Shown here in pieces: positions 4,116 through 47,211 of a DNA stretch of 47,521 nt (the first letter of the stretch is position 1; each line of letters starts with the position of its first letter). The translations under genes and the position numbers were made by a program. This stretch comes from Halorubrum coriense DSM 10284. GTDB lineage: Archaea; Halobacteriota; Halobacteria; Halobacteriales; Haloferacaceae. The notes beneath the pieces are model-generated. The model did no database searches and was not told the origin of the DNA. It worked only from the letters and a program-made list of their open reading frames with translations. Where the stretch lies: the NCBI RefSeq assembly GCF_000337035.1, contig NZ_AOJL01000060.1, positions 238,415 to 285,935 on the forward strand. The letters are read 5' to 3'.

Positions 4116-4463
4116 TCAAAGGAACTCGCGGACCTCGGAGTACCACATGTCGTGGTGGTCGACGGCGTCGAGCCCGTCCGCGACGTCGACCGCGATGGCG
4201 TGCCAGCAGCGCTCGTCGGGGTCGTCGGCGTCGAGGTTGTACGTCGCGTCCGCGCAGGTACACTCCCCGTCCTCGACGACGTACTCGTCCTCGTGGCCCA
4301 CGACGACGGTGAAGTCGCGGTAGCGCTTCACGCGCCCCTCGCCGACCGCCTCGATCGCGCGTTGGCCGCGGTCGCCGTGGGCCTCGACGATGGCCGCGGC
4401 GATCGGGCCGGTCAGCTCGCCGGCCTCGGCGATCGCCGACCGCCAGTCGTCGACCGGTTCCAT
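4116..4463 (-). CDS. Small SWIM zinc-finger protein
   Basis: The protein has 115 acidic residues. It carries the SWIM pattern CxCx(n)CxH as C68-T-C70 and C86-W-H88, embedded in YVVEDGECTCADATYNLDAD and DERCWHAIAVDVADGL. SWIM fingers bind nucleic acid or protein partners. Small stand-alone versions are common in haloarchaea and have no proven function. TGTTTAACGG lies about 27 bases before the ATG and is a plausible TATA box for a leaderless message. Another SWIM protein is at 24782-25426, but the two share only the finger. Confidence 0.75.
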   Translation of the reverse strand: MEPVDDWRSAIAEAGELTGPIAAAIVEAHGDRGQRAIEAVGEGRVKRYRDFTVVVGHEDEYVVEDGECTCADATYNLDADDPDERCWHAIAVDVADGLDAVDHHDMWYSEVREFL

Positions 4464-4686
4464 ACCCCCTCGTTCTCGGGCGCCCCGTTAAACAGCGTCG
4501 GTCAGATCTGACCGACCGGCGCGCGTTTCGGCCCGCTCCTCCGCGTCCGCCCGTCCCGGACGAGACGTACCGGCGCTGCGCACCGCGAGTGGGCGGCCGG
4601 GAGCGTTCGGGGGCGGCAGACGAGCGCCGGCGACCATCGCGGCGGAACGCCGGCGACCGTCACGGCGGGGCTCGCGTCGAGCGCGG

Positions 4687-5829
4687 TCACGCCGGTCTCG
4701 GGGCCGTCGTCGCCGTTCCGACCCCGGAAAACACGAACTCGGTCTCGTCCGGCCCCGTCTCGACCGCGCCGTCCCACCCGTGGCCGGAGACGACCCGTTC
4801 GACGATCAGCAGTCCGAGACCGCCCCGGTCGGCGCCGAACGCGTCGTCGAACAGCGAGTCGGCTATCTCGGCGGGCATCTCGGGGCCGTCGTTCGCGATC
4901 GCGAACCCCGAGTCCGTCCCGCGCACGGTGACCGTCACCCCGGTTCCGCAGTGCTCGTCGACGTTCCGGAAGACGTTCTCGAACAGCTGCCGCAGCCGCG
5001 ATTCGTCCGCGGTTAGCGCGCGGCTTTCGGCCACCTCGAGCGCGGCGTTCGACGGCGCGACCAAGTCCCACGCCTCGCGGGCGACGCGGCCCAGGTCGAC
5101 GCGATCGCGTTCCCCCACGTCGACGCCCTCGCGGGCCAGCGCGAGCGTGCTCGCGATCAGCTCCTCGATCCGGTCCAGAGAGTCCATCACCGTCCGGAGG
5201 CGCGTCGTGACCGTGTCGGGTGCCGTCTCGATCGCGTACTCGGTGTAGCCGACGGCGGCCGTGAGGGGGTTCCGAATGTCGTGGGCCAGAACGCCGGCGA
5301 ACTCGTCGAGGCGCTCGTTCTGTGCTTCGACGGTCTGGTAGTGTTTCTCGCGTTCTATCTCGTAGCTGATCCATTGGGTCATCAGCTGGACGAACCGTCG
5401 TTCCGTCTCCCGGAACTCGCGGTCCCGAGGCGTCTCGTCCGAGTAGCAGAGGGTTCCGTACGTCTCTCCGTCGACCACGATCGGCCCGCCGATGTAACAC
5501 TCCCACCCCGAAGCCTTCCGAGCGACGTCGTCGGCGTACGTGGACGCCCCCGCGTCGGCCACCACGAGGAGCTCCCGTTCGTCGACGACGTGTCGACACC
5601 ACGTCTCCTCCAGGTCGGAGACGGTCCCGGCGGCGAACTCGCCCGCCCGAACCGTCGACCCGGTGATCTCGTGTTCGCCGTCGGCCGTGTACGAGAGGAC
5701 ACCGTACGCGAGGTCCAGACGTTCTCGACCCAGCGTCACCGCCTTCGCGATCTTCTCGGACAGGGGCATCGACTTGTCCGCACCCAGCTCGTATAGGTCT
5801 CTGAAGTAGTCCTCCGATGTCTGTGGCAT
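4687..5829 (-). CDS. GAF-domain sensor histidine kinase
   Basis: The protein has 380 residues and no membrane segment, so it is probably a cytoplasmic sensor. Residues of about 20-160 are a GAF domain (YGVLSYTADGEHEITG ... WECYIGGPIVVDGETYGTLCY) of the kind common in haloarchaeal kinases. Residues of about 170-240 are the HisKA dimerisation helices, with the phospho-acceptor H183 in LAHDIRNPLTA. Residues of about 285-370 are the ATPase lid domain, with an N-box FENVFRNVDEHCG, a G1-like AIANDGPEMP and a G2-like GGLGLLIVERVV. In the N-box the usual FRNAVEH reads FRNVDEH, a mild departure. No cognate regulator is adjacent. The same GAF-HisKA module recurs in the next kinase gene. Confidence 0.88.
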   Translation of the reverse strand: MPQTSEDYFRDLYELGADKSMPLSEKIAKAVTLGRERLDLAYGVLSYTADGEHEITGSTVRAGEFAAGTVSDLEETWCRHVVDERELLVVADAGASTYADDVARKASGWECYIGGPIVVDGETYGTLCYSDETPRDREFRETERRFVQLMTQWISYEIEREKHYQTVEAQNERLDEFAGVLAHDIRNPLTAAVGYTEYAIETAPDTVTTRLRTVMDSLDRIEELIASTLALAREGVDVGERDRVDLGRVAREAWDLVAPSNAALEVAESRALTADESRLRQLFENVFRNVDEHCGTGVTVTVRGTDSGFAIANDGPEMPAEIADSLFDDAFGADRGGLGLLIVERVVSGHGWDGAVETGPDETEFVFSGVGTATTAPRPA

Positions 5830-6066
5830 GGACGTACCACCGGTAAGCGATCGCCGGTGATGGCGCTTTTACCCACGCACATCGGTACACCGCCTCACGC
5901 ACCGATTCACACGGGGCGCCGGACGACGGCCCGCGAACGAACCGCCCGAAGGCCGTGCGCCGCAGGCGGCGTGGACGAGCGGGGCGGGCAGCGTGCGAAC
6001 CGCCTCGCGTGTTCTCCTCGGGGTCGAGCGGTACGTCCCGAGTTTCCGTCTCCGGGTCGGGGGGTC

Positions 6067-9000
6067 CTACGCGGCTTCGTCGAACTCGAACCGCGCGCCG
6101 CCGTCGCTTCCGTCCGTCACGGACACCGTCCAGCCGTGCGCCTCCGCGATGTCGGCCACGATCGAGAGCCCGAAGCCGGTCCCCCCGTCGCTGGACGTGA
6201 CGCCGTGCCGAAGCACGTCGTCGCGTCGATCCGGCGGGATCCCGCTCCCGTCGTCTTCCACGTAGAAGCCGCCGTCACCGGCCGACTGCCCCACCGTAAC
6301 CGTGACCGTCGGTCCGCCGTGCTCGACCGCGTTCCTGAAGAGGTTCTCGAAGAGCTGCGTCAGGCGGCCCGGATCGCCGGTGACCGTCGGCACCGCGTCC
6401 GCGACCGCGAGCGCCGCCTCGTCCGTGTCGACGTACCCCCACGCCTCCGTCGTCACGGTGCCGAGGTCCACGGCTTCCGCGTCCTCGACGGCGGTCTCGC
6501 CGCGCGCCAGCGCGAGCAGGTCGTCGATGAGCCGCTCGGTCCGGTCGTGAGCCGACTGCACCCGCGCGAAGTGGTCCGGGTCGCCCGTCTCCGTCGCGAG
6601 TTCGAGGAACCCCTGCGCGACGGTGAGGGGGTTTCTGAGGTCGTGGGCGACGACGCTCGCGAACTCGTCGAGCCGCTCGTTTTGCCGCTGTAGCTCCGCT
6701 TCCCGGCTCGCCCGCGCGAAGGCCGCCTCGACGGTCGCACCGAGGATCCGGAACAGGTCGACGTCGGTCTCGCAGAACTCGCGGGGCGACGTCGACCCGG
6801 TGATCATGACGCCGTACTCGCCCAGCGGAACGACGACCTCGCTCTGGATCGCCGTGTCGGAGTTGTATCTGCGGTCCGCGTCGTGAACGTCGTCGTACAC
6901 CCGCGTCTCCCCCGACTCGAACGCGTCCCACGCGAGCCCCTCGCCGCTGTCGAACCGGGGGGCCTCTCCGAGCAGGTCCGTCGCCGCGTCCGTTTCGCTG
7001 ACCGGGACGAGCGCGTCCGCCCGCCGGTCGAACTCCCACGCCGCGGTGACGTCGAGGCCGAGCACGTCGGCCGCGGCGTCGACGGCGACGGAGCCGATTG
7101 CCTCTGCCGACTCGGCGCTGCTGAGCCGCTGTGCGGTCTCTTGGAGCGCCCGCAGTCGGGCCTCCAACCGCTTCTGATCGGTGATGTCCTCGACGACGGC
7201 GAGCGTGCCCGTGACCTCGCCGTCCGGGGCCGTGATCGGGGCGATGGACAGGAGCAGGTCCAGCGTGTCCCCGGCTTTCGTCTCCAGTCGCACCTCCTCG
7301 GCTCTGACCCGCTCGCCGCGTAGCGCGCGTCGCCGGTGTGCGGCGAACTCCTCCCACCGCTCGGTCGAGGCGAGCGGGTTCCGCGCGCCGCGGACCTCCT
7401 CGTGCGACCAGCCGAACATGGTCTCGGCCTCCTCGTTCCAGCGCACGACGCCCCCGTCGGCGTCGACTTCCATCACGGTGAGCGGGGTCGCTTCGATGAG
7501 CGACTCCAGCCGCTGGTTCGTCGTCTCGAGCTCCCGCTCCCGTTCGACCCGTTCGGTCACGTTCCGGGCGATGCCCACGATCCGAACCGTCTCGCCGTCG
7601 ACGGTCACCGGTGCGAGGCTAGTCTCCCAGAACCGGCCGTCCGCGACCGTTTCGAGCTCCTCGTGGTACGAGATCGGCGCGCCCTCCTCGACGCAGCGAG
7701 CGTAGTTGGCCGCGAGCTCGGCCCCCTGTTCGTCGCCGAACACCGCCCGCGGCGTCTCGCCCCGAACGTCCGCGGTCGTGAGCCCCGTCTGCGACTCGTA
7801 CCCGGGGCTGAGGCGGGCGAACTCGAACGACGGCTCGTCGCCGGCGGCGTCGACGTCGAGCAGGAATATCGCGTCGCCGGAGGTCTCGAGCAGCGCCGCG
7901 TACTCCTCCGCGAGCGCCTGATGCTCGCGCCGCTTCGCCTCCCGCTCCGTCACGTCCTGGAACACGCCGCGGAGCGCCGCGTCCCCGCGGCGCGCGTCCT
8001 CGACGAACTCCCCCCACGCCCGGACGTCGCGCACCCCGCCGTCGGCGCGCTCGATCCGGAGGTCGAGGTCGTACAGCTTCCCGTCCTCGATCGCGGTGTC
8101 GACCGCGTCGGTGATCGTCTCGCGGTCGTCCGGGTGGTAGAACTCGATCGCGTCGTCGATCGACGGCTCGTACCCCTCGTCGACGCCGTGGATCCGGCGC
8201 GTCCCGTCGGACCACGTGAGCTCCTCTCGCGCGGGGAAGTACTCCCAGACGCCGATGTCCGCGATGTCTTGGACCCGGTCGAAGAGGAACTCCCGTCGCT
8301 CCAGGTCGGCGCGGTCTCGCGCCCGGGAGAGCTCGGCGCTCACGAGCTCGGCCAACAGCTCGACGAACGTCCGTTCGAGCGCCCCGAACGGGGCCACTCG
8401 CGTCGTCGGGCTCGAGAAGTTGACCGTCCCGTAGCGAGCGCCGTCGACGACGAGCGGCACGCCGATGTACGACTCGAGTTCGAGCTCGCGGTAGGCGGGA
8501 TGAGTCGCTTTCCCCTCGCTGACCGCGTCCGCGAACGAGCAGACGGAGTCGGTCCCGACCACTTCCGCGCAGTACGTCGACGCGAGGTCGAACCGGTCGC
8601 CGGCCTCGACGTCGGCGTCCGGTGCGTGAACCGCTTCGACCGTGTAGTCGCCGCCCTGCGCCCGCGAGACGATCCCGATCTCGAGCCCGAGCGTCCGGCA
8701 GCCGACTCGCAGCAGGTTCCGAAGGCGAGACGCGCTCGAGGTGTCGCTCTCCGCCATGACGGTCTGGAGCTCCCGGAGCGCGTCCCGCTCCCGTTCCAGC
8801 TGGTGCTTCGCCGCACTCCGCTCGGTCACGTCGCGGGCGACGACGAGCACCTGATTGGTCGCTCGGCGCTGGAACGGCGTCAGCCGAATGTCGAACGTCC
8901 GCTCGCCGTCCCCGACGGCGACGTCTATCCGTAGGTCCGCGTCGTAGAACCCGGACAGCCCGCCGTCGCTCTCCATCTCGTCGAGCGTCAGTTCGACCGC

Positions 9001-9972
9001 CTCGGAGAACGCGCGGGCGTCCGCCTCGTCGACGCGGTCACCGGCGAGCTCGGACAGCCGCTTCCCGGTGAGGTCCGCCGACTGACGACCGGACAGCAGG
9101 CGGTTCGCGGCCGCGTTCGCGAACGCGACGGACCCGTCCTCGTCGACGACTGTCACCGCGTCGTGGACGTTCTCCAGGACCGCTTCGCTGCGTTCCAGCT
9201 CTCGCTCGCGTTCCCGTTCGTCGGTGATCTCGCGCGAGAAGACGGTCAGCCCGTCCTCGTCCGGGAACGCCCGCACCTCGACCCAGTAGTCGAACGGGTC
9301 GCCGAGCCGCTGTTCGAACGACGCCGGTTCGCCGGTGGCCATCGCCGTTCGATACCGCTCTTCGAGCTCCGTCCCCACGATCGACGGGAACGCCTCCCAG
9401 ATCGTGTTCCCGACGATCCGCTCCGGGTCGCGCTCGATCCGCTCGGCCATCGTGTCGTTCATGTACTCCACGCGCCAGTCGCCGTCGACCGCGTAGATCG
9501 CGTCGGTGGCGCGTTCGAGCGTCCGCTGGAAGCGGTCCGACAGCCGCTCGGCGGTCGCCTGTTTGCGCGCCGCGTCCACCAGCGTTCGGACCCGACCGGC
9601 GAGCAGCTCGAAGCTGTCTTGGGTCCCGTGGATCGGGATGTAGTCCGACACGCCGGCTTGGGTCGCCTCGCTGGCGATCCGCTCGCTGCCCCGCCCGGTG
9701 AAGAGGACCGTCGGCAGGTCGGGACGTTCGGTCTCGGCCCGCGCGACGAGGTCGATCCCGGTCCCCTCCGGCAGCGAGTACGAGGTGACGAGACAGTCGA
9801 CGGAGCCCTCGGCGACCCGGCTGAGAGCGACCCGCGTGTCGCCGACGGTCGTCACCGTCACGCCCGGTGCGATCCGTTCGAGCTTCGCCCGAGCCAGTTC
9901 GGCGAAGTCGGCGTCGCCGTTCACGTACAACACGTGAATCCGCTCCGGGCGTCCGTCGCTCGCGTGTTCCAT
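6067..9972 (-). CDS. Hybrid multi-PAS/GAF sensor histidine kinase with pseudo-receiver
   Basis: The protein has 1301 residues and no membrane span. The visible order is: receiver-like domain (about 10-135), PAS (about 145-255), PAS (about 260-385), GAF (about 400-560), PAS (about 565-685), PAS (about 690-810), PAS (about 815-930), GAF (about 940-1090), HisKA with the phospho-acceptor near H1110 (VVAHDLRNPLT), and the ATPase with N-box FENLFRNAVEHGG and GTGFGLSIV. The receiver has lost its acceptor: VDCLVTSYSLP has Ser where relatives have Asp, and DYIPIHG lacks the conserved Lys. It probably no longer accepts phosphate. The kinase core looks complete. The gene points away from the pilus cluster. 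Its 237-bp downstream gap holds a CGCCG/CGGCG hairpin near 5960. Confidence 0.88.
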   Translation of the reverse strand: MEHASDGRPERIHVLYVNGDADFAELARAKLERIAPGVTVTTVGDTRVALSRVAEGSVDCLVTSYSLPEGTGIDLVARAETERPDLPTVLFTGRGSERIASEATQAGVSDYIPIHGTQDSFELLAGRVRTLVDAARKQATAERLSDRFQRTLERATDAIYAVDGDWRVEYMNDTMAERIERDPERIVGNTIWEAFPSIVGTELEERYRTAMATGEPASFEQRLGDPFDYWVEVRAFPDEDGLTVFSREITDERERERELERSEAVLENVHDAVTVVDEDGSVAFANAAANRLLSGRQSADLTGKRLSELAGDRVDEADARAFSEAVELTLDEMESDGGLSGFYDADLRIDVAVGDGERTFDIRLTPFQRRATNQVLVVARDVTERSAAKHQLERERDALRELQTVMAESDTSSASRLRNLLRVGCRTLGLEIGIVSRAQGGDYTVEAVHAPDADVEAGDRFDLASTYCAEVVGTDSVCSFADAVSEGKATHPAYRELELESYIGVPLVVDGARYGTVNFSSPTTRVAPFGALERTFVELLAELVSAELSRARDRADLERREFLFDRVQDIADIGVWEYFPAREELTWSDGTRRIHGVDEGYEPSIDDAIEFYHPDDRETITDAVDTAIEDGKLYDLDLRIERADGGVRDVRAWGEFVEDARRGDAALRGVFQDVTEREAKRREHQALAEEYAALLETSGDAIFLLDVDAAGDEPSFEFARLSPGYESQTGLTTADVRGETPRAVFGDEQGAELAANYARCVEEGAPISYHEELETVADGRFWETSLAPVTVDGETVRIVGIARNVTERVERERELETTNQRLESLIEATPLTVMEVDADGGVVRWNEEAETMFGWSHEEVRGARNPLASTERWEEFAAHRRRALRGERVRAEEVRLETKAGDTLDLLLSIAPITAPDGEVTGTLAVVEDITDQKRLEARLRALQETAQRLSSAESAEAIGSVAVDAAADVLGLDVTAAWEFDRRADALVPVSETDAATDLLGEAPRFDSGEGLAWDAFESGETRVYDDVHDADRRYNSDTAIQSEVVVPLGEYGVMITGSTSPREFCETDVDLFRILGATVEAAFARASREAELQRQNERLDEFASVVAHDLRNPLTVAQGFLELATETGDPDHFARVQSAHDRTERLIDDLLALARGETAVEDAEAVDLGTVTTEAWGYVDTDEAALAVADAVPTVTGDPGRLTQLFENLFRNAVEHGGPTVTVTVGQSAGDGGFYVEDDGSGIPPDRRDDVLRHGVTSSDGGTGFGLSIVADIAEAHGWTVSVTDGSDGGARFEFDEAA

Positions 9973-10265
9973 TGGCGGCTATCGGCGGTGCGGCTGTATC
10001 AATCATTCCCGCCGATTATGTCCAGTGATAGAGCCGCTGAACGAGCCGGCGACGAGACCGGCGCGACTGCGTCGCGAGCGGGACGGCGATCGGCGTCTCG
10101 GCGGAACCAAGGGCTACGAAGGCGGCTACCCGGACGTCTTACTCCCTCTATCGGCCGTATTTGAGCTACACCGATGAGCATCGGTATCAGGAAAACGGGA
10201 CCGATGAATCTCGGAAGCCGCCTTTTCACCGGTGATAACGGACGGCCAAGCGAGGTCGTACGCTC
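9973..10265. other. Divergent control region between kinase and winged-helix gene
   Basis: This 293-bp gap separates the large kinase (leftward) from the winged-helix regulator (rightward). I see no coding sequence with haloarchaeal character. The notable content is a set of ACCGRTG motifs (annotated separately). A weak A/T-rich stretch CAATCATTCCCGCCGATTAT near 10000 may serve the kinase promoter. Confidence 0.5.
10170..10234. promoter_or_regulatory. Candidate operator: perfect dyad plus two ACCGRTG repeats
   Basis: ACCGATG-AG-CATCGGT at 10170-10185 is a perfect 7-bp dyad. A second ACCGATG begins at 10200, followed by an imperfect ATCTCGG arm, and ACCGGTG begins at 10228. The starts lie 30 and 28 bases apart, close to three helical turns, so a regulator could bind them on one face. 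They lie 32-96 bases before the winged-helix gene. Autoregulation by that protein is an inference. Confidence 0.35.
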
Positions 10266-10685
10266 ATGAAACCCATTCGCGCGCTCGGTCGGGAGTACAG
10301 CATGGAGATCCTCGGCGCAACCGAAGAACCCACGTCGGTGACTCGTCTCAGCGACTCGTTGGACGTCCCGATCGCGACTTGCTACCGCCGCGTCGGCGAA
10401 CTCGTCGCGGTCGGCCTGCTAGAGGCGACGCCGGCCGCGGAGGCCGACGCGTCGAGGGCGAGCCTGTACCAGCGAACGACGGACGCCGTGGGTATCAGGT
10501 TCGCTCCGGTCCCGTCGCTGTTCGCGTGGACGTGCGTCCGTGAAGCCGTGGGCACCGACGCGTCGGCGCTCGAATCGGCCGCGGAGGCGGAGTCGGAGGG
10601 GCGGGTTCGAATCGCGCCGATGAGCGGCTCCGCTCCGGACACCGCGGCGGTCACGGAACGGCCCCCCGCGTGGAGTGACGAGTAG
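10266..10685 (+). CDS. Winged-helix (ArsR-like) transcriptional regulator
   Basis: The protein has 139 residues. Residues 1-80 form a winged helix: MKPIRALGREYSMEILGATE, then EPTSVTRLSDSLDVPIATCYRRVGELVAVGLLEA, where CYRRVGEL is the recognition helix. This resembles the small ArsR-like regulators placed next to archaeal pilus and secretion genes. The C-terminus is low in complexity and has no metal-binding cysteine pair, so metal sensing is unlikely. It is followed after 37 bases by the sensor/ATPase chimaera, whose own TATA box lies in the gap. Control of the pilus genes is inferred from position only. Confidence 0.72.
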   Translation: MKPIRALGREYSMEILGATEEPTSVTRLSDSLDVPIATCYRRVGELVAVGLLEATPAAEADASRASLYQRTTDAVGIRFAPVPSLFAWTCVREAVGTDASALESAAEAESEGRVRIAPMSGSAPDTAAVTERPPAWSDE

Positions 10686-10693
10686 GCCGACGA

Positions 10694-10699
10694 TTTATT
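10694..10699 (+). promoter_or_regulatory. TATA box of the chimaeric sensor/ATPase gene
   Basis: TTTATT is centred about 26 bases before the ATG at 10723, which predicts a leaderless transcript and supports that start over the in-frame ATG at 10675, which would overlap the regulator gene. Confidence 0.55.
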
Positions 10700-10722
10700 G
10701 CCATGAGACACGTCAACAATAC

Positions 10723-12789
10723 ATGACTGGCCCGCGATCGCCGCTCGCGTCTCCGGAGCGCCTTCTCAGCCTCTCGGCGGAACTCAACGGGGCCGAGACC
10801 GTTTCGACCGCGATCGGTCGCACGACCGAGTTTCTGGAGACGGTGTTCGACCGGCCGGCGGTGAGCGTCTGTGCGTACGACGCGACGACCGAGACGGTCA
10901 CCGCTCTCAGGCCCGACGCCTCGTCTTCGTCCGGCGTTGACGGCGCTCCGGACCGGATTCCGGAATCGATCGGCAAGCGGGTGGACGAACGGGGAGACGA
11001 GTCGTTGAGCGACGGCGCTCCCGAAGCGGCGGTCGACGACAGCCCGCCGGAGCCGCTTCAGTCCGAGATACTCGTTCCCGTCGGGGGCGACCGCGTACTC
11101 CGCGTCGGTCTCACCGAGGTCGAGGGGCCCGACGACGCCGACGTCGCCGTCGTCGAGGGGATCGCGGCGAACCTCGAGAGGACGCTGTCTCGGGTCGACC
11201 CCCGACGGTCGCCGGCGGCGGGTTGTGACGTCGCCCGCGCGCTGTTCGATCGGTCGGACGACCCCACGTTCGTCAGCGACGCCGACGGGACGCTGGTGGC
11301 CGTCAACCGGGCCGCCGTCGAGTTGACGGGGCGAGACCGGCGTTCGCTTCTGGGCAGTCGGTTCGCCGCGGTTCTGGGGGACTCGTCGGCGGCGGTTCGC
11401 GAGCACCTCGACGACGCCGCCGCCGGTGCGTCGGAACCGGTCGCGACGACGTTCGAGCGCGCCCGCGGGGGCGACCTGCGGGTCGAACTCGCCAGCCACC
11501 GGGTCGACGTCGACGGGACCGCGCACGTCCGCACGGTGGCACGCGGGCCGTCGCGGGGCGCGGAGCTTCACCGAGGGCGACGCGGGGGGCCGGTGGGCGA
11601 CGACGCGGCCGCGCTCCGTCGGCTGAGCGAGCTCGCGGTCGACTTCGAGGAGTTCGACGAGGCCATCGAGCGACTGCTGTCGCTCGGGTGCGACCACTTC
11701 GGCCTCGACGCGGGCGTACTCGCGCGCGTCGACGGCGACGACTACGAGGTCGATACCGCGGTCGACGCGACCGGGACACACGAGGCGGGCGCGGTGTACG
11801 ACCTCGCGGACACGATGTGCGACGCGACGCTCGCCGGCGACGCGGCCGAGCCGCTCGCGTTCGCCGACGTCGCGGAGACCGACCACCGGGACCACCCGGC
11901 GGCCGACAGCGTCGTCGCGTATATCGGCGCTCCCGTCGTCGTCGGTGACGGGGTCTACGGCACGGTGAACTTCTCGATGCGGAGACCGCGCGTCGTGCCG
12001 TTCCGCGCGGAGGAGAGGGAGTTCGTGAAGCTCATCGCGAAGTGGCTCGGCACCGAGATTCGACGGCGCGAGCGGTTCGAGGAGCTGGAGCGGTACGAGA
12101 CGATCCTCGAGGCCGTCGACGATCCGGTGTACGCGCTGGACACCGAGGGGCGCTTCACCTACGTCAACGACGCCGCGAAGCGAGAGTTCGGGTACGGAAC
12201 GGAGATCGTCGGCGAGCGTCCGTCGGTCGGCATGAAGGGACCGGACGTCGCCCTGGCGTTCTTCCAAGCGATGGCCACGGGCCACACCGCCTGTACGACG
12301 CTCCACGCGGACAGCATCGGGACGGTCCTCTCCCGGCTACAGAACCCGCCGCTACAGGTGCCCGAGCAGATGATCCAAGAGCTCGACATCGTCTGCGTTC
12401 AGCGTCAGGTCCAGCGGGGCGAAACGCGGATCCGACGGAACACGAACATCACCGAGATCGGCGAGGGCGACGGCGTACAGCGTAACCAGCTGTATCGGTG
12501 GGACCCGACGACCGACGAGTTCGACGTCCGAGGAGAGTCGCGGAAGCTCGAATCGCTCCGTCGCGCGAAGGGCTGGTCGGCGACCCGACTTCAGGCGGAG
12601 CTGCGCCGGCGGGCTCGGTTCCTCGCGGCGCTGGTGGAGGCGGACGTTCGCACCTACGAACGGGTCTCGGCCGTCATCGAGCAGTTCCAACGGCGTCCCG
12701 AGGAGACGCTCGCCCGGGTACGGAGCGGAGCGATCGGCGGAGACGCCGCCCGCAAGCCGGGAGATCCGGGTGGCGGGACACGGCGATGA
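10723..12789 (+). CDS. Chimaeric GAF/PAS sensor fused to C-terminal end of type II/IV secretion ATPase
   Basis: The 688-residue frame has two unrelated halves. Residues 1-504 are signalling modules: GAF (1-152), PAS (about 170-279, FVSDADGTLVAVNRAAVELT), GAF (about 297-446, SVVAYIGAPVVVGDGVYGTV) and the first half of a PAS (456-504, YETILEAVDDPVYALDTEGR). From about 508 on the sequence is that of FlaI/PilB-type ATPases: ALAFFQAMATGHTACTTLHA (the His box), NPPLQVPEQMIQELDIVCVQ, LYRWDPTTDEFDV and the usual helical C-terminus. The Walker A P-loop, Asp box and Walker B of a real secretion ATPase are absent, as are the rest of the PAS and any kinase domain. It overlaps the pilus platform gene by 4 bases (ATGA). 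It may be a deletion product, a true fusion or an assembly error. Confidence 0.78.
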   Translation: MTGPRSPLASPERLLSLSAELNGAETVSTAIGRTTEFLETVFDRPAVSVCAYDATTETVTALRPDASSSSGVDGAPDRIPESIGKRVDERGDESLSDGAPEAAVDDSPPEPLQSEILVPVGGDRVLRVGLTEVEGPDDADVAVVEGIAANLERTLSRVDPRRSPAAGCDVARALFDRSDDPTFVSDADGTLVAVNRAAVELTGRDRRSLLGSRFAAVLGDSSAAVREHLDDAAAGASEPVATTFERARGGDLRVELASHRVDVDGTAHVRTVARGPSRGAELHRGRRGGPVGDDAAALRRLSELAVDFEEFDEAIERLLSLGCDHFGLDAGVLARVDGDDYEVDTAVDATGTHEAGAVYDLADTMCDATLAGDAAEPLAFADVAETDHRDHPAADSVVAYIGAPVVVGDGVYGTVNFSMRRPRVVPFRAEEREFVKLIAKWLGTEIRRRERFEELERYETILEAVDDPVYALDTEGRFTYVNDAAKREFGYGTEIVGERPSVGMKGPDVALAFFQAMATGHTACTTLHADSIGTVLSRLQNPPLQVPEQMIQELDIVCVQRQVQRGETRIRRNTNITEIGEGDGVQRNQLYRWDPTTDEFDVRGESRKLESLRRAKGWSATRLQAELRRRARFLAALVEADVRTYERVSAVIEQFQRRPEETLARVRSGAIGGDAARKPGDPGGGTRR

Positions 12790-14744
12790 ACGCGGCGGAC
12801 GTGGTGGACGGCTTCGGGCTCTCCCGCGTCTACGAGTTCTTCTGGTCGCGCTACCGGCGCGGCGGCGAGGAGTACGCCGAGCTACAGGGCGCGTTGAACG
12901 CGGCACAGCTACCGGTCACCGCCGAGACGTATCTCGCGCGGTCGGCGACGCTGTCGGTCGGATTCGGCGTCGTCGGCGCGGTGGCCGGCGTCTTCGTCGG
13001 CGCGATGCTCTCGCTGGGCGGGGTCGTCGCGGCGCTGGACGCGCCGCCCGCGCTCCATCCGATCGCGGTCCCGCTAGCGGGGGCCGAACCGATCGGGTCG
13101 ATCCTCGTCACCGCGACCGTGCTGGGCGGTGGCCTGGGGTTCGCCTACCGACGGTACTCGCTGTCGCGGCCGCAGGCGATAGCCGACAGGCGGGGCCGGG
13201 CGATCGACCTCAACCTCCCGAACGGGATCCTGTTCATGTACGCCCTCTCGCAGGGCGGGATGGACACGCTGAGCGTCTTCCGGACCCTGGCCGAGTCGGA
13301 CGACGCCTACGGCGAACTCGGGTCCGAGTTTCGGGTACTCATACGCGACGTCGACGTGTTCAACAAGAACCTGCTGGACGCGCTGCGGGCCGCGCGCACC
13401 CGAACGCCGAGTCGCAGGTTCGCTCGGTTCGTCGACGACGCGGTGAGCATCATCGACTCGGGCGGCGACTTCACGTCGCTCGTGGAGACGGAGGCGAACA
13501 CGTACCTACAGGAGGCGCGCGCGGAACAGCGCGGCCTCATCGAGACGTTGGCCCTCGTCGCCGAGGGGTACATCTCGCTGCTCGTCGCCGGGCCGCTGTT
13601 TCTCCTCGTTCTGCTGTTGGTCATGGCGTTGCTCGGGGCCGAGACGCTGTTGTACGTCGCGGCCGTCGTGTACGTGGGAATTCCCCTCGGGTCGGTCGCG
13701 TGTGTGCTGCTCATCGACCGGATCGCCGGCCCGTTCGAGGCGACCTCGGCGTCGATTTCGGTCGACGAGGCGGCCGGCGTCCGACCGCCGGCGGGCGACG
13801 CCCGCATCGCCCGCTACGCCCGACGGAAGCGCGTCGGGACGGTCCGGGGATGGCTTCGAAACCCGGTCCAGACGCTCATCGACGAGCCGAGGTTGACGCT
13901 GCCGATCACGGTGCCGGTCGCCGTCGGTCTCGTGGGCGCCGTCGCGCTCTCCGGGCCGGCGCTGTTCTCCGCTTCCGGGCTGACCGCCAGGCCGATCGCG
14001 GGTTCGATCGCCGTCTTCGTCCTCCCCGTTCTGGTCGTCGCCGCACCGGTGTCCCTCTTTCACGAGCTCCGCCGGCGACAGCGGTCGGAACTGATGAACC
14101 GGTTCCCCGAGACGCTGTCGGCGATCGCGAACATCAACGGTATCGGGCTGTCGCTGCCCGAATCGATCGACATCACGAGCGACCGACGGAGCGATCGGCT
14201 CGGAGAGCAGTTGGGTCGACTCACGAACGACATCGCGTGGAACCGCGACACGTCGGGGGCGCTGGCGCGGTTCGCGAACCGGATCGGTATCGGCGAGATC
14301 ACCCAGTCGACGAAGCTCCTCAGCGAGGCCAACCGTGCCGGCGGGGGGATGCGGCGCGCGCTCTCGATCGCGGCGGACGACGCGCGGGCGAGCAGACAGC
14401 TGCGGCGAGAGCGCACCCAAGAGCTTCAGTCGTACCTCGCCATCGTCGTGGTCGGCTTCGTCGTCTTCGTCGGCGTCGTGGCGATGATCGACCTGTTCTA
14501 CCTCCAAGGCATCGCGCAGACCGCCAGCGACAGCGTTCCGGACCGACGCGCCACCGGACTGGCCGTGTCGCTGCGGGAGTTCGAGGTCAACACGTTTCGG
14601 CTCCTCGTGTTCCACGCCGCCCTGATACAGGCGGGATTCAGCGGTCTCGTCGGAGGAAAGATCGCGAACAACGACGTGCTGAGCGGTCTGAAGATCAGCC
14701 TCGCGCTCGTCGTCGCCACGGTCCTGCTGTTCCTCGGTGTCTGA
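12786..14744 (+). CDS. Type II secretion system F family membrane platform (TadC/PilC-like)
   Basis: The protein has 652 residues and is the polytopic inner-membrane platform of an archaeal type IV pilus-like machine. It has an early hydrophobic pair (about 50-115), a first T2SSF cytoplasmic domain (about 140-260: PNGILFMYALSQGGMDTLSV ... FVDDAVSIIDSGGDFTSLVE), a membrane pair, a second hydrophobic set around 370-430, a second T2SSF domain (about 430-560: PETLSAIANINGIGLSLPES ... LLSEANRAGGGMRRALSIAA) and C-terminal membrane helices. Two T2SSF domains in one chain are normal for the archaeal group. The start overlaps the chimaera stop, so translation is coupled. The gene looks intact although its partner ATPase gene does not. 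Confidence 0.87.
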   Translation: MNAADVVDGFGLSRVYEFFWSRYRRGGEEYAELQGALNAAQLPVTAETYLARSATLSVGFGVVGAVAGVFVGAMLSLGGVVAALDAPPALHPIAVPLAGAEPIGSILVTATVLGGGLGFAYRRYSLSRPQAIADRRGRAIDLNLPNGILFMYALSQGGMDTLSVFRTLAESDDAYGELGSEFRVLIRDVDVFNKNLLDALRAARTRTPSRRFARFVDDAVSIIDSGGDFTSLVETEANTYLQEARAEQRGLIETLALVAEGYISLLVAGPLFLLVLLLVMALLGAETLLYVAAVVYVGIPLGSVACVLLIDRIAGPFEATSASISVDEAAGVRPPAGDARIARYARRKRVGTVRGWLRNPVQTLIDEPRLTLPITVPVAVGLVGAVALSGPALFSASGLTARPIAGSIAVFVLPVLVVAAPVSLFHELRRRQRSELMNRFPETLSAIANINGIGLSLPESIDITSDRRSDRLGEQLGRLTNDIAWNRDTSGALARFANRIGIGEITQSTKLLSEANRAGGGMRRALSIAADDARASRQLRRERTQELQSYLAIVVVGFVVFVGVVAMIDLFYLQGIAQTASDSVPDRRATGLAVSLREFEVNTFRLLVFHAALIQAGFSGLVGGKIANNDVLSGLKISLALVVATVLLFLGV

Positions 14745-14746
14745 CG

Positions 14747-16498
14747 ATGAGACGCGCACTCCCAGCCCTCGGGTTCGCCCGTGTCTCCCGGCGTCGGGCG
14801 GCCGGCCGGGCCGTGTCCACCGTCTTGGGCACGCTGCTGATGTTCGGACTCGTCATGTTGCTGCTCGCCTCGCTTCAGGCGACAGCCGTTCCGATCTGGA
14901 ACGAAGACATCGAGTTCCGACACGACGGGGAGGTACGGAGCAGTGTCGGCGACGTTCACGACGACATCGTCGAGCTGTCGACGCGGCGGGCCGACCGTTC
15001 GAACACGGTCGAGCTCGGGGTCCGCTACCCGACGAGACCGTTCCTGCTCAACCCGCCCGACGCCAACGGTCGGCTTCGGACGCTCCCGAACGGGACCGTG
15101 ACGTTGTCCAACGCGACGGCGGCCGGGGAGGCGGGCGACTACTTCGACGGGACCGACCGCTCGTTCGTCACCCGGACCGTCGCTTACGAGGCCGACTACA
15201 GCGAGTACCGGAGCGCACCGCGGTACCTCATCGACAACGGCGGACTCATCGAACAGCACGAGGGCGCGGACCTCGCCCGCAGCGACCCGATGCTCGTCGA
15301 CGGGACCCGGATCAATCTCGTCCTCGTACACGGGTCGCTCTCGCGGTCCGGCGTCCGCGACGCGAGCGTGATGACCCGCGCCGGGAGCCCGTCCGCGGAC
15401 GCGACCGCCGTCAGCAACGAGAGTTCGCCGGTCGGAATCACCGTCCCGACGGCCGCGGGGCAGTCGTACTGGGAAAGCGCCCTCGGGGACGAGCTGGCTT
15501 CTGCGGGCGGTTACGTCACCTCGATACGCGTGACCGCGGGCGAGCCGTACAACACGTTGCGGCTCGAGTTACGGCCGAACGTGACGTACCGGCTCCGAAC
15601 GGCTCAGGTCAGCGTCGGCGGTGACCGCGCGGACGGCGCTCCGGAGTACCTCACGCGGGGTGAGACGACCGGTACGACCGCGGTCGGTGAGCATCGAGAG
15701 GTCGAGTACGTGGTCCGCGACCGCTTCTCCAATCCCGTCGCCGACGTCGACGTCGAGGCGGCGGTCGTCGACGGCCCGGGAGAGCTCGTCGCAGCCAACG
15801 ACACGTCCGACGACGACGGAACCGTGCGGTACCGCTACGTCAGCGATCGGGCCGGGACGGCCACGGTCAGGGCGACGTTCGGTTCCGCGCCCGGAGCGTT
15901 GGAGACCGCGGAGCAGTCGATCGCGGTCCACTCCGGCTCGGAGTCCACCGACGGGTGCCGCTTTCCACGGTGGACGGCCGCCGATCCGACCGTTCGGCTC
16001 ACGAACGCGCAAGAGGGCTGTGCGTGGTCCGGCGTCGAATCCGTCGACGGCGTCTCGCTCTCGGATCCGAACCTGACGTCGCTCACCGGAGCCAACGAGG
16101 AGTTCGACCCGAAACGCCAGTACTTCAGGCTCGGGTTCACCGTGGAGAGCGGGGATACGGCGTACTACGTCGCCGTCACTCGGACGACCGACCTCGCGAG
16201 CGACGTGGTCGACCTCGACGGGCTGACGCGGTCGTACGGGGGGAGCTGGTCGAACACGAACGTTCAAGTGTACCGGCGGGTCGGCGATCAGGCGTTCGAA
16301 CTCCGCGGTGAGGGGGCGCTGAGTTCGTCCGCTCTCGAGGAGTGGTACCAGCGGACGAGGTCGGTCGACCTGCTCGATCAGGCCGCGTACGGGTCCGGGA
16401 ACCCCGGCGTCGACGAGTTACGGAGCTTCACGAGCGGTCGAACGGTGACGATCCGCTTCTTGGAGTTCCACGGCGCGACGACGGTCACGGCCGCGTGA
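14747..16498 (+). CDS. Large pilin-like secreted protein with Ig-like domain (DUF7289-like)
   Basis: The protein has 583 residues and follows the platform gene after 2 bases. The N-terminus RRAAGRAVSTVLGTLLMFGL, then VMLLLASLQ, is a class III (pilin-type) signal: a basic stretch, a likely prepilin-peptidase site near GRA/VST, then one hydrophobic helix. The rest is extracellular in style, rich in Asp, Thr and Ser. Residues of about 315-385 (EYVVRDRFSNPVADVDVEAA ... AGTATVRATFG) resemble a Big-1/invasin-type Ig-like domain. The length far exceeds ordinary pilins, so an adhesive tip or minor pilin is a reasonable inference. A long overlapping frame upstream of the ATG is a shadow of the platform gene. 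Confidence 0.75.
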   Translation: MRRALPALGFARVSRRRAAGRAVSTVLGTLLMFGLVMLLLASLQATAVPIWNEDIEFRHDGEVRSSVGDVHDDIVELSTRRADRSNTVELGVRYPTRPFLLNPPDANGRLRTLPNGTVTLSNATAAGEAGDYFDGTDRSFVTRTVAYEADYSEYRSAPRYLIDNGGLIEQHEGADLARSDPMLVDGTRINLVLVHGSLSRSGVRDASVMTRAGSPSADATAVSNESSPVGITVPTAAGQSYWESALGDELASAGGYVTSIRVTAGEPYNTLRLELRPNVTYRLRTAQVSVGGDRADGAPEYLTRGETTGTTAVGEHREVEYVVRDRFSNPVADVDVEAAVVDGPGELVAANDTSDDDGTVRYRYVSDRAGTATVRATFGSAPGALETAEQSIAVHSGSESTDGCRFPRWTAADPTVRLTNAQEGCAWSGVESVDGVSLSDPNLTSLTGANEEFDPKRQYFRLGFTVESGDTAYYVAVTRTTDLASDVVDLDGLTRSYGGSWSNTNVQVYRRVGDQAFELRGEGALSSSALEEWYQRTRSVDLLDQAAYGSGNPGVDELRSFTSGRTVTIRFLEFHGATTVTAA

Positions 16499-16642
16499 AC
16501 GGCTCGCGACGAACGACAGCCGGACGGCCGGGTTCACCGGCTTCGAGCGGGGACTCGTCTGCCTATCTGAATCGGTGCGACAGACCGCACACCGATGAGG
16601 GCAGGCGGAGGGCACGTGTCGATGTGGGCACGATCCGAGTGT

Positions 16643-17002
16643 ATGTCGCATCAGTCCGACGCAGACGCCGCGTCACACGCGGACGCCCAACGAGGAACCG
16701 ACCCGCGTGTCGTGGCGGGATGGTCGACGGACACGGAGCTAGTGCGGGAGTTCGGTCAGGCGGCGGACATCGGCGACGCGGTCTGCCTGACGGTCGACGA
16801 AGCCGTGGCGACGTGGTCGGAGCTCTCCGAGACGCCCTCGCTGCTCCGGTTCGTCGACGTCGACAGCCTCGACGGGCTGTTCAAGGCGAAGGCGACGGAC
16901 AACAACGGGTGGCTTCCGTCGACGAACTTCCAGTTTCAGAGCTGTCGGGTGACGCTCCTGTACGGCGCCTCGATCCGCGTGATCGTCGACCGCGAACCAT
17001 GA
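16643..17002 (+). CDS. HalOD1 output-domain protein
   Basis: The protein has 119 residues. The last 80 (VREFGQAADIGDAVCLTVDE ... LLRFVDVDSLDGLF ... CRVTLLYGASIRVIVDRE) match the HalOD1 domain, a haloarchaea-specific module proposed to act as an output partner in signalling. The usual aromatic-Asp-Pro-Asp-Ala-Leu core is seen here as FVDVDSLDGLF. Upstream in-frame ATGs exist at 16595 and 16622. The start at 16643 (MSHQSDADAA) fits the family length. It lies between the pilin-like gene and the HalX regulator, suggesting a role in the same signal circuit. Confidence 0.7.
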   Translation: MSHQSDADAASHADAQRGTDPRVVAGWSTDTELVREFGQAADIGDAVCLTVDEAVATWSELSETPSLLRFVDVDSLDGLFKAKATDNNGWLPSTNFQFQSCRVTLLYGASIRVIVDREP

Positions 17003-17101
17003 GGCGCGCTCGACCCGTACCGGCACCGCCCGGGACGCGCCGCGCGGGACACGGCGAGCCGACGAGAACGCACCGGCGGGGGCGGCGGCCGGGAGGACGC
17101 G

Positions 17102-17707
17102 ATGCCCGCTGACGCGGACCGGACGCGCGTCCTCGTCGTCGAGGATCGCCGCGACCTGGCCGCCCTCTACGAGACGTGGCTCGAAGACGAGTACGACGTT
17201 CGAAGCGTCTACTCCGGTCGGGCGGCGCTGGAGAGCGTGGCGGAGCACGGGGCCGACGTCGTGCTTCTCGACCGGCAGCTGCCGGGGCTTTCCGGTGACG
17301 AGGTCGCGGACAGCCTGGACGGGAACGGGTGCGACGCGCAGGTGGTCATGGTCACGGCCCACTCGCCGTCGCCGGCGGTCGCCGACCTCCCGGTCGACGA
17401 CTACGTCGTCAAGCCGCTGCGGGTGACACAGCTACACTCGATAGTGGAGACGGCGGCGCTGATCAGAACGTACGACGACGACATCTCCGAACTGCTCGGA
17501 CTGCTGGCGCGAAAGCAGGCGTTGGAGGCGGATTTCCTCGCGAGCGAACTGGCGGCGAGCGAAGCGTTCGACCGATTGACGGCGGAGATCACGGAACGCG
17601 AGGAAGCCGCGGCGGATGCGGTGGAGCGGCTGTGGTCGCAGTCGGAGACCGACCTGTTCGCGCGGCTTCCGGTCGCGTCGACCGGGGGCCCGACGACGCG
17701 GCTCTGA
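17102..17707 (+). CDS. HalX-type response regulator
   Basis: The protein has 201 residues. Residues 8-120 form a complete receiver: acidic pair E14-D15, phospho-acceptor D57 in VVLLDRQLPG, T85 and K104 in DYVVKPL. Residues of about 130-185 match HalX (ELLGLLARKQALEADFLASE), a helical domain found in haloarchaeal regulators. There is no DNA-binding domain, so output is likely through protein contact. With its intact acceptor it could serve the kinase at 4687 or 6067, neither of which has its own working receiver. This pairing is inferred. Confidence 0.85.
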   Translation: MPADADRTRVLVVEDRRDLAALYETWLEDEYDVRSVYSGRAALESVAEHGADVVLLDRQLPGLSGDEVADSLDGNGCDAQVVMVTAHSPSPAVADLPVDDYVVKPLRVTQLHSIVETAALIRTYDDDISELLGLLARKQALEADFLASELAASEAFDRLTAEITEREEAAADAVERLWSQSETDLFARLPVASTGGPTTRL

Positions 17708-17870
17708 CGAGGCGCGCTTCCGACGCCGTCCGCCCCGAGGCGCGCGAGGCGCACGCGGCGCCCGTCGGTGCCGAAGGGCGTCTCGCGACAGATCCCGGTT
17801 CCCCGCTGACGCTTATGCGCACGGCGGTCCTCTCGTCCGGACTCCAGCGGTTTCGGGACCGGAGACCCGA

Positions 17871-19730
17871 CTACTCCAGCACGATCAGCACGTCGCCCAT
17901 GTCGACGCTGTCGCCCTCGCCGACGTGGACCCCCGCGACGGTGCCGCCGCGCTCGGCGACCACGTCGTTCTCCATCTTCATCGCCTCGAGGACGCAGACC
18001 ACGTCGCCGGCGGCGACCTCGTCGCCCTCCGCGACGTCGACGGAGAGGATCGTCCCCTGCATCTCCGCGTCGATGGACTCGCCGCCCTCGGCGACGTCGA
18101 CCGAGTCGTCGCCGCCGTCGTCGGCGGTCGCCTGCGGCGGGCGCTGCTGGCCGCCGCTCCCGCCGCTCTCGGGGACCGGAACGGCGGGCGCGCCGCGCTC
18201 CTCTAACTCCACGTCGAAGCGCTTGCCGTTCACCTCGACGGTGAACTCGCGTTCGGTCACCTCCTCGTCGTCGTCCGCGACGCCCGCGGTCTCGGAGCCC
18301 CACCGCTCCTGCGCGTCGGCGACGAGCTCCCGGTCGAGCTCCTCGTCGAGGTACTTCGTCGTGTGCGTGCCGTCGACGAAGCGCTCGTCGTCGAGCATGA
18401 GCCGGTGGAACGGGACGATGGTGACGACGCCGTCGATGTCGTACTCCGCGAGCGCGCGCTTCGAGCGCGCGAGACAGGTCTCGCGGTCGCCGGCCCGCAC
18501 GATCAGCTTGGCGATCATCGAGTCGTAGTCGGTGACCAGCTCGTCGCCCTGCCGGAGCGCGTCGTCGACGCGGACGCCGATCCCGCCCGGCGGGTCGTAC
18601 GTCTCCAGCGACCCCTCGTTGGCGGGCTGGAAGTCGTTCGCGGCGTTCTCGGCGTTGATCCGGAACTCGACGGCGTGGCCCTCCAGCTCGACGTCGTCCT
18701 GCGAGACCGAGAGGCCATCGCCGCTGGCGACCCGGAGCTGCTCGCCGACGATGTCGATCCCCGTCAGCTCCTCGGTGACGGTGTGTTCGACCTGGATCCG
18801 CGTGTTCACTTCGAGGAAGTAGAACGGCGTGTCGGGGCCGAGCGGCTCCGCCGGGTCCCGGTCGGGGTCCTCCTCGACGAGGAACTCGACGGTTCCGGCG
18901 TTGGTGTAGTCGGCGGCGGCGACGCCGCGGCGGGCGGCCTCGCCGATCTGTTCGCGCAGTTCGTCGGAGAGCGCGGGCGAGGGGCCCTCCTCGATCACCT
19001 TCTGGTGGCGGCGCTGGAGCGAGCAGTCGCGCTCGCCGAGGTGGACCACGTCGCTCTCGGTCACCGACCCGTCCGGGTCGTCCGCGACGACTTGGACCTC
19101 CACGTGGCGGGGGGTCTGGAGGTAGCGCTCGAGGTACACCGAGTCGTTCGAGAAGTACGCCTCGCCCTCGCGCTTCGCCGATTCGAGGGCCTCCGCGGCC
19201 TCGTCGGCGCTCTCGACGACTTTCATCCCGCGGCCGCCGCCGCCGCCCTCGGCCTTGATCGCGACGGGGTAGCCGTACTCGTCGCCGAACTCGGTGACGG
19301 CCTCGGCGTCGGTCACCGGTTCCGTCGTGCCGGGGACGATGGGCACGTCGGCGTCGTCCATCACGCGGCGCGCGTGGGTCTTCTCGCCGAGTCGCTCCAT
19401 CGCGTCGCTCTCGGGACCGACCCACGTGATCCCGTCGGCCGCCTCGACGCGGGCCGCGAAGTCGGCGTTCTCGGCGAGGAACCCGTAGCCGGGGTGGATC
19501 GCGTCGGCACCGGCCGAGCGCGCCGCCTCGACGACCGCCTCGCCGTCGAGGTACGAGTCCGCCGCGCGGGCGGGCCCGACGTTGTACGCCTCGTCCGCGT
19601 ACCGGACGTGGCCGCCGTGTTTGTCGGCGTCGCTGTAGACGGCGACGGTGTCGACGCCGAACTCCTCACAGGCGCGCATCACGCGAACCGCGATCTCGCC
19701 GCGGTTCGCCACGAGAACCTTGTCGAACAT
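17871..19730 (-). CDS. pccA: Acyl-CoA carboxylase biotin carboxylase/biotin carrier subunit
   Basis: The protein has 619 residues and combines biotin carboxylase (1-450) with a C-terminal biotinyl carrier domain (about 550-619). It carboxylates enzyme-bound biotin with ATP and bicarbonate. Visible motifs are [20 protein letters not shown], the ATP-grasp glycine loop [33 protein letters not shown], and the biotin site [11 protein letters not shown] with K585. A Ser/Gly/Gln-rich linker joins the two parts. An alternative ATG lies 21 bases upstream at 19751; the chosen start fits the family. With the carboxyltransferase and PccX it would form an acetyl/propionyl-CoA carboxylase. Which acyl-CoA is preferred cannot be read from sequence. 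Confidence 0.9.
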
Positions 19731-19816
19731 TCCTGTCGGTTCTTCCACCAACTGCTACCAAACTCTGTCGGTCCGTGCCGGGACGGTTAAGGGGGCCGCG
19801 GGTCCCACCTTGAGGC

Positions 19817-44261: not shown

Positions 44262-44638
44262 GACTCGCGGTCGGTCGCGTCCGGCGACTCCTCGTCGGCC
44301 GGTTCGCCGTCGACCAGTTCCGCGGCGACCGTCGCGGCGTCCAGCAGGTCGGGGTCGACCGCGAGGTCGGCGACGGTCGCGACGAACTCCGGCAGCGACC
44401 GGCTCGCGTACGTCACGACCCGAACGTCCGGGTTCCGCTCCTTCGCGACCGGGATGCCGGTCGCCTCCTCGACGTCGGTGAGGACGAAGTACGCGGCGTC
44501 GGCGATGCCGGCCTCGGCGAGCGCGTCGGCGGTGACGAGCCCATCGATGCGGTTGATCGCGACGCCGAGCGCGGCGAGCTCCTCGCCGAGCCCGTGCTCG
44601 TCGGGGCCGGCGACGACGGCGAGTGGCTGGTCCGTCAT
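44258..44638 (-). CDS. Small conserved protein of the pyrG-guaAB operon (DUF7126-like)
   Basis: The protein has 126 residues. It starts [20 protein letters not shown] and has a Rossmann-like alternation of strands and helices (AVVAGPDEHGLGEELAALGV ... AAYFVLTDVEEATGIPVAKE). The C-terminus is acidic. No catalytic motif is seen and no function is known. One-base overlap with the guaAB stop and a 4-base overlap with the glutaredoxin indicate tight coupling. Confidence 0.68.
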   Translation of the reverse strand: MTDQPLAVVAGPDEHGLGEELAALGVAINRIDGLVTADALAEAGIADAAYFVLTDVEEATGIPVAKERNPDVRVVTYASRSLPEFVATVADLAVDPDLLDAATVAAELVDGEPADEESPDATDRES

Positions 44639-45555
44639 CACTCGTACTCGATCGTCGCGGGCGGCTTGTGGGTCACGTCGTAGACGACCCGCGCCACGTT
44701 CTCGTTCTCGCCGGTGATCCGGCTCTGGATCCGCTGGAGCGTGCTCCAGTCGAGCTCCTGCGCGCGGGCGGTCATCCCGTCGCGGCTCTCGACGGAGCGC
44801 ACGGCGACCACCCAGCCGTGGACGCGGTTGTCGCCCTTGACGCCGGTCGCCTTGCCGAGGACCGCGGCGAACGCCTGCCACGGGTCGTACTCCTCCAGCT
44901 CCTCCTCGACGACGTGGGTCGCCTCGCGGGCGACCGCGGCCTTCTCCGGGGTCACCTCGCCGACGATCCGGACGGCGAGCCCGGGGCCGGGGAACGGCAT
45001 CCGCTCGGAGATGATCTCTTCGAGCCCGAGCTCGCGGGCCACCTCGCGCACCTCGTCCTTGTACAGGTCGCGCACGGGCTCGACGATCCCCTCGAAGTCG
45101 ACGACCTCGGGGAGCCCGCCGACGTTGTGGTGCGACTTGATGTTCCCCTCCGACTCGATGCGGTCGGGGTAGATCGTCCCCTGAACGAGGTAGTCGGCGT
45201 CGACGTCGCGCGCGACCGCCTCGAACTCGTCGATGAACCCCTCGCCGATGACGTGGCGCTTCTCCTCGGGATCGGTGACGCCCGCGAGCCGGTCGAAGAA
45301 TCGGTCCTGCGCCTCGATCACGCGCAGCGACTCCATGAAGTCGAACGTGTCGCGGATCTCCGCCGTCTCCCCCTTCCGCATCAGGCCCGTGTCGACGTAG
45401 ACGGGGGTGAGCTGGTCGCCGACCGCCTCGTACGCGAGCGTCGCCGCGACCGAGGAGTCGACCCCGCCGGAGAGGGCGATCACGGCGTTCGCGTCGCCGA
45501 TCGCCTCCCGGATCTCCGCTTTCGCCTCCGCGATGAATTCGTCCGTCTCGACCAT
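44638..45555 (-). CDS. guaAB: GMP synthase ATP-pyrophosphatase subunit
   Basis: The protein has 305 residues. It adenylates XMP and uses ammonia from a separate glutaminase subunit to form GMP. The PP-loop SGGVDSS is at 29-35; further motifs are [50 protein letters not shown] and the C-terminal dimer part ending [11 protein letters not shown]. Archaea split the enzyme, and the glutaminase subunit is not here. The ATG abuts the pyrG stop. Confidence 0.94.
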
Positions 45556-47211
45556 CTATAGCCTCACGTCCGCGTTCCGCTCGGTTGTGTCCGTCGATCC
45601 CAGCGCCGCCTCGACGAGCGAGACGAACGGCGGGCTCGCGCGGTCGGGCCGCGACCGGAACTCGGGGTGCGCCTGCGTCCCGAAGAAGAACGGGTGGTCC
45701 GGACGTTCGAGGATCTCCATCCGGTTGTCGGCGCGCCCGGAGAACGTCAGCCCGTCGGCCTCCAGGTCGTCGATGTACTCGGGGTTCACCTCGTAGCGGT
45801 GGCGGTGGCGCTCGGTACAGGAGTCGGCGTCGTACACCCGGGCCGCGAGCGTGTCGGGTTCGATGTCGGTCTCGTGCGCACCGAGCCGCATCGTCCCGCC
45901 CATGTCCTCCGTCTCGTACTGCTCGGGGAGCAGGTCGATGACGGGGTGAGGGGTGTCGGGGTCGATCTCCGCGGAGTGGGCCGCGTCGAGGCCGAGGACG
46001 TTGCGCGCGTGCTCGACGACCGCCATCTGGAAGCCCAGACAGAGTCCGAGGAACGGCACGCCGTTCTCGCGGGCGTAGCGGATCGCCTCGATCTTCCCGT
46101 CGGTCCCGCGGGAACCGAAGCCGCCGGGGACGACGACGGCGTCCGCCTCGGCGAGGCGCTGCTCGTGTTCCTCGCGCGTCTCGTCGGCGTCGACCCACAG
46201 CACGTTCACCTCGGTGCCGGTCTGGATGCCGGCGTGCTTCAGCGCCTCGTGGATCGACATGTAGGCGTCTTCGAGGGCGTACTTGCCGACCAGGGCCACG
46301 TCGATCTCCTCGTCGCGGTCGCGGGTGACCAGCTCGCGCCACTCCGTCGAGCGCTCGGCCTTCGGCAGCGCCTCCGCGGCGAGGCCGAGCCGCTCCATCA
46401 CGTACTCGTCTAACCCCTCGTCTTCGACCATCAGCGGGACGTGGTAGATGTCCTCGACGTCCGGGTTCGAGAAGACGGCGTCCGTGGGCACGTCACAGAA
46501 GAGGGCGATCTTCTCTTTCGTCTCCGGGTCCAGCCGGTCCTCGGAGCGCCCGACGAGGATGTCGGGCTGGAGCCCGATCGAGCGCAGTTCCTTCACAGAG
46601 TGCTGGGTGGGCTTCGTCTTCTGCTCGCCGTTCTTCGAGTACGGGACGAGCGTGACGTGCGTGAAGAGGATGTCCTCGTCGTCCTCCTCGTGGGCGAACT
46701 GGCGGAGGGCCTCGAGGAACGGCATCGACTCGATGTCGCCGACCGTCCCGCCGATCTCGACGAGGCAGACGTCGGACCCCTCGGCGGCCTCGCGGATGCG
46801 GCGCTTGATGTCGTCGGTGACGTGCGGGATGATCTGGACGGTCTTGCCGAGGTAGTCGCCGGCGCGCTCGCGCTCGATGACGTGCTCGTACGTCTTCCCC
46901 GTGGTGACGTTGTGGTCGAACGTCATGTCGGTGCCGAGGAAGCGCTCGTAGTTGCCCAGGTCGAGGTCGACCTCGCCGCCGTCCTTGAGGACGTACACCT
47001 CGCCGTGCTCGTACGGGTTCATCGTCCCGGCGTCGACGTTGAGGTAGGGGTCCACCTTGACGGCGGTGACGTCGAAGCCCGCGTTGGCGAGAAGACGCCC
47101 GGTGCTGGCGGCGGTGATGCCCTTGCCCAGCCCGGACATCACTCCGCCCGTGACGAACACGAACTTCCGACCCATCGAGGGGTCGTACCCCGTGTCGGGA
47201 TCTGCTGGCAT
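45556..47211 (-). CDS. pyrG: CTP synthase
   Basis: The protein has 551 residues. It aminates UTP to CTP with glutamine. The N-terminal synthase domain has [20 protein letters not shown] and [20 protein letters not shown]; the C-terminal class I glutaminase has [18 protein letters not shown] with the nucleophilic Cys and [11 protein letters not shown]. The start at 47211 ([17 protein letters not shown]) is like other haloarchaeal PyrG proteins; the ATG at 47175 is an alternative. It is the first gene of a leftward operon with guaAB and two small genes. Confidence 0.94.

Follow-up and report, generated by a model that had tools for sequence, protein, structure and literature searches.

Haloarchaeal type IV pilus operons of the PilB3/PilC3 type comprise three conserved genes, encoding an assembly ATPase (PilB3_N, T2SSE and PilB3_C domains), a platform protein (T2SSF) and a pilin-like protein. 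PilB-type motors require Walker A, Walker B and a catalytic glutamate (PMC11656802), and PilB paralogues in Sulfolobus and Haloferax have been reported to be unable to replace each other (PMC4371748). A second group of haloarchaeal proteins relevant here are the large PAS/GAF histidine kinases, exemplified by those of the genomes G031, G043 and G051.

A single gene of Halorubrum coriense DSM 10284 resembles both systems in part. The first ~520 residues of its product are like such a kinase, and its end, together with the platform and pilin-like genes that follow, matches the conserved three-gene operon. It differs from the kinases in being cut inside the second PAS domain, without HisKA or HATPase_c, and from the pilus operons in that a sensor replaces the front of the ATPase (PilB3_N, Walker A, Asp box and Walker B).

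Architecture of the fused gene

The window, the whole stretch of 47,521 nucleotides that was analyzed, belongs to a draft genome in 69 contigs, one of which, C60 (424 kb), contains it; both its close relatives and its operon homologues come from haloarchaea. The fused gene is one open frame on the + strand (10675-12789, 704 amino acids) without stops, and alignment to the related kinase of G019 indicates that ATG 10723 (residue 17), rather than GTG 10675, is the likely start. Pfam searches identified a PAS domain at residues 188-272, a GAF domain at about 327-462 and, at 472-514, the start only of a second PAS domain, which is thus halved. These are followed by a T2SSE match at residues 520-585, covering only profile positions 220-284 of 370, and by PilB3_C at residues 613-684, while HisKA and HATPase_c gave no match in the fused protein. 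The codon-position GC is similar on either side of the joint and its pattern is maintained across it. Together with the parent alignments described below, the Pfam matches bear out the first-pass annotation, which had described an in-frame chimaera of a GAF/PAS sensor and a pilus ATPase tail; the chimaera is present in the assembled sequence. Structure models were of low confidence both for the ATPase fragment (mean pLDDT 54.5) and for an intact ATPase (41.7). The features of the locus are collected in Table 1.

Table 1 Coordinates of the fused gene and its neighbors in the window.
Feature	Position	Strand	Basis
N-terminal part of large PAS/GAF histidine kinase	10675..12231	+	Residues 1-519; identity to G031, G043, G051, G019
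Junction: kinase ...VGM, (K G P), DVA... ATPase	12232..12252	+	Codon alignment with intact parents
C-terminal ~183 residues of PilB3-type pilus ATPase: His box, distal RecA-like domain, PilB3_C	12241..12789	+	T2SSE profile, PilB3_C, identity
Pilus platform protein PilC/T2SSF, 652 aa, intact	12786..14744	+	T2SSF, two stretches
Pilin-like protein, third operon gene	14747..16498	+	N-terminal hydrophobic segment, sub-threshold Big_1 match
Small HTH regulator	10266..10685	+	Pfam HTH_20; overlaps kinase ORF, directly upstream
Genomic island, ~13.4 kb	4510..17868	.	Two kinases, HTH, chimaera, pilus genes, HalOD1 and HalX regulators

Parents of the two parts and the joint between them

Within the genus, the relatives of the sensor part are kinases of 1556-1827 amino acids with 55-68% identity. 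They include the kinases of G031 (1827 amino acids, 61-63% identical), G043 (1556 amino acids, 60%), G051 (1711 amino acids, 68% over the GAF-PAS part) and G019 (64%), the last of which is interrupted by the end of its contig; related kinases whose ends are complete have numerous PAS domains as well as HATPase_c. The likeness to G031 extends upstream, where the gene directly preceding the full kinase is 59% identical to the small HTH gene of the window. The match to the G051 kinase runs past the junction to residue 541, which we regard as a chance extension (QAMAT in the ATPase against RLMAT in the kinase). In G031 the kinase gene is followed by one for a HalX response regulator, and the presence of a HalX regulator in the window (17102-17707) raised the possibility that the pilus genes had split a kinase-HalX pair. 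This was rejected because the two regulators are not mutual best relatives: in a genus-wide search the window HalX regulator was 39% identical to the G031 copy and up to 45% identical to others.

The ATPase part corresponds to the last 183 amino acids of a PilB3-type ATPase. Its closest intact counterparts, from Salinibaculum, Halorientalis persicus and Halapricum sp., are 48-53% identical, and those of the same-family genomes G095 and G167 are 48-49% identical. The ATPases of intact relatives measure 583-682 amino acids and adjoin a platform gene and, in most genomes, a pilin-like gene, in the gene order seen in the window. When aligned with five intact ATPases, the chimaera proved to lack the nucleotide-binding motifs noted as missing in the first-pass annotation: Walker A (GGTASGKTT, with the P-loop GxxxxGKT in 5/5 relatives), the Asp box (SIEDTRE) and Walker B (LLVGEIR), including the catalytic Glu of VGEIR, all lie upstream of the joint in the intact proteins. 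The His box (TGHTACTTLHADS) is retained in the stump.

The platform protein is 36-40% identical to platforms encoded beside intact ATPases, and the pilin-like protein is 35-43% identical to the third operon gene product in Salinibaculum, Halorientalis, Halapricum, G025 and G167. The chimaera and the platform gene overlap by ATGA at 12786-12789. This coupling to an intact platform gene, previously singled out as remarkable, is real but not notable: since intact relatives show the same conserved ATPase-platform-pilin order, it is the normal, ancestral coupling of ATPase and platform. Immediately after the same pilus operon in Halorientalis persicus (L045 10432-14789) come two genes that share 79-83% identity with those at 45556-47505 and 44638-45555 of the window and putatively encode CTP synthase and a GMP synthase subunit; in the window, these genes (44638-47505) stand 28 kb from the pilus genes.

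At the joint, four related kinases align to ...RPSVGM..DV and five intact ATPases align from (P)DVALAFFQAMATGHT, which agrees with the earlier placement of the sensor PAS break near VGERPSVGMK and of the junction near 12230-12245. Kinase homology extends to GM(N/R/D)(E/D)(S/A)DV and ATPase homology starts from (E)(P/A/Q/T)(D/E/Q)VAL, the chimaera reading GMKGPDVAL; the span predicted across the joint is ...RPSVGMKGPDVALAFFQ.... Both parents share the Asp-Val, encoded by a common GACGTC, with GACGT(C/T)GC or close variants at the DNA level. For example, the G051 kinase reads GAG GCG GAC GTC GCG at the breakpoint and the Salinibaculum ATPase GAG GCG GAC GTT GCG. At this point the parents have only about 6-12 identical bases in common, and repeat and tRNA searches found no long repeat, tRNA or mobile-element signature at the joint.

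Distribution, missing halves and genomic setting

A search of relatives for the same junction, as the first-pass annotation had proposed, did not recover it, neither with the full fusion in 52 genus genomes, nor with the ATPase part in 170 family genomes, nor with a junction-spanning piece in 392 genomes drawn from the order. All strong ATPase-side matches started at or beside the joint. Both parents are intact and unlinked in relatives, and in no relative were the kinase and the pilus operon seen side by side.

The missing half of the kinase was absent from the assembly when the C-terminal part of the G031 kinase was used as the query; only paralogous PAS/kinase pieces matched, the best with 54% identity over 151 amino acids in one PAS stretch only. 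The ATPase front was likewise absent from the assembly, where the only matches were complete paralogues on contigs C32, C44 and C60, and no significant remnant of either half was detected in 12200-17800. These paralogues, of which those on C32 and C44 have canonical P-loops, answer the earlier question of whether the genome holds a second ATPase gene with a P-loop, and each adjoins its own platform gene. Elsewhere in the same genome, T2SSE profile positions 120-257 match part of a 658-amino-acid frame, at L004 (G000 C30:21549-21944).

The fused gene is located in a genomic island whose flanking genes (4116-4463 and 17871-19751) are only 78 bp to 2.9 kb apart in seven same-genus genomes, with flank homology ending at ~4505-4509 and ~17868. 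Relatives carry differing small inserts at this site, which is likely an insertion hotspot beside a biotin-carboxylase-like gene, and both the HTH-kinase pair and the pilus operon are found at other places in other genomes. Rearrangement is expected within such a variable island. The minus strand of the island encodes two further kinases at 4687-9972, with GAF-HisKA-HATPase (380 amino acids) and receiver-PAS-GAF-HisKA-HATPase (1301 amino acids) organization, and 16595-17707 encodes a weak HalOD1-domain protein followed by the HalX response regulator, with nearest genus relatives only 45% identical.

Compared with the four nearest named relatives, the stump is 48-53% identical, the platform 38-40% and the pilin-like protein 38-43%. 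Intact operon pairs with a platform identity of ~39% show 47-49% for the ATPase C-terminal part and 39-41% for the pilin (Halorientalis versus G025, G095 and G167; for the Halorientalis-G095 pair, ATPase C-terminal part 48% and platform 39%). The stump has diverged no faster than its operon partners, which suggests that either the fusion is recent or the ATPase stump is still under constraint.

Origin and meaning of the fusion

The first-pass annotation had offered three readings, a deletion, a working fusion and an assembly error. The deletion, with loss of the core of the kinase and the front half of the ATPase, is best supported, given the intact and unlinked parents, the absent halves, the microhomology at the joint and the variable island; the working fusion gained no positive support and the assembly error is less likely. 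We therefore consider it probable that a kinase and an extra pilus motor in the variable island were both destroyed in a recent event, either a deletion at microhomology or a mosaic join. Illegitimate recombination would have joined the two unrelated genes in frame, with its breakpoint at the few shared bases encoding Asp-Val. The simplest route would be one deletion that removed some 4-5 kb between the histidine-kinase gene and a downstream pilus operon, the other a mosaic join during formation of the island. On the kinase side, the loss would comprise half a PAS domain together with further PAS/GAF domains, HisKA and HATPase; on the ATPase side, it would comprise the N-terminal domains along with Walker A, the Asp box and Walker B. 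The resulting product would be neither kinase nor ATPase. We infer the former adjacency of the two genes, the deletion mechanism and the loss of function from this pattern. The frame that is open throughout and the unexceptional divergence of the stump count against an accidental break and would also fit a maintained product. A further point against a deletion is that no relative has the two loci adjacent in a pre-deletion state.

An erroneous joining of two loci would be conceivable in a draft with about 3% estimated contamination, and none of the other genomes searched has the joined form. However, the bases shared at the joint are too few for an ordinary k-mer misjoin, the long contig contains no N run, and the absence of both missing halves elsewhere in the assembly points to a real loss rather than to a misjoin of two complete loci; we regard an assembly error as unlikely. 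Two broken genes would likewise result if the pilus operon had been truncated before its arrival and had inserted into the kinase gene. The variability of the island and the occurrence of the HTH-kinase pair and the pilus operon elsewhere in other genomes are compatible with such an insertion, but the stretch that follows the pilus genes, as far as 17800, yielded no C-terminal kinase remnant, and neither a tRNA nor long repeats were found at the joint; we consider this origin very improbable.

In a working fusion, the PAS-GAF part would sense a signal and the ATPase C-terminal domain would bind the platform or join or poison other PilB hexamers, such that sensing gates pilus assembly. The stop-free frame with its continuous codon-position GC pattern, the retained His box and PilB3_C, the translational coupling to the platform and the unaccelerated divergence of the stump speak for this model. 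Yet the fragment has neither the ATP site nor the front of the RecA-like domain, its structure model is of low confidence, the PAS domain is halved, the coupling to the platform came with the ATPase operon, one join in three would be expected to keep the frame, and none of the other haloarchaea searched has the junction. Overall, a working fusion appears quite improbable. The specific picture of a stably produced fused protein that attaches through its ATPase C-terminal domain to the platform, or to a hexamer of another PilB, and lets pilus assembly follow a PAS/GAF signal is highly improbable. If the protein did work, it would constitute a direct link from sensor to pilus motor; no precedent for a PAS/GAF-PilB fusion was found in the literature.

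Rather than a new motor driven by a sensor, the chimaera is thus probably a damaged gene of an ordinary kind. Following accidental breakage, the pilus system of intact platform and pilin-like genes would be left unpowered or decaying. Judging from its motifs, the operon most likely lacks a dedicated motor, because the Walker motifs and the catalytic glutamate are gone and PilB paralogues are reported to be non-interchangeable. As a broken gene, the chimaera would be an example of a variable haloarchaeal island destroying signalling and pilus genes via microhomology joining, and it cautions that such a product could be labelled a sensor or an ATPase by automatic annotation.
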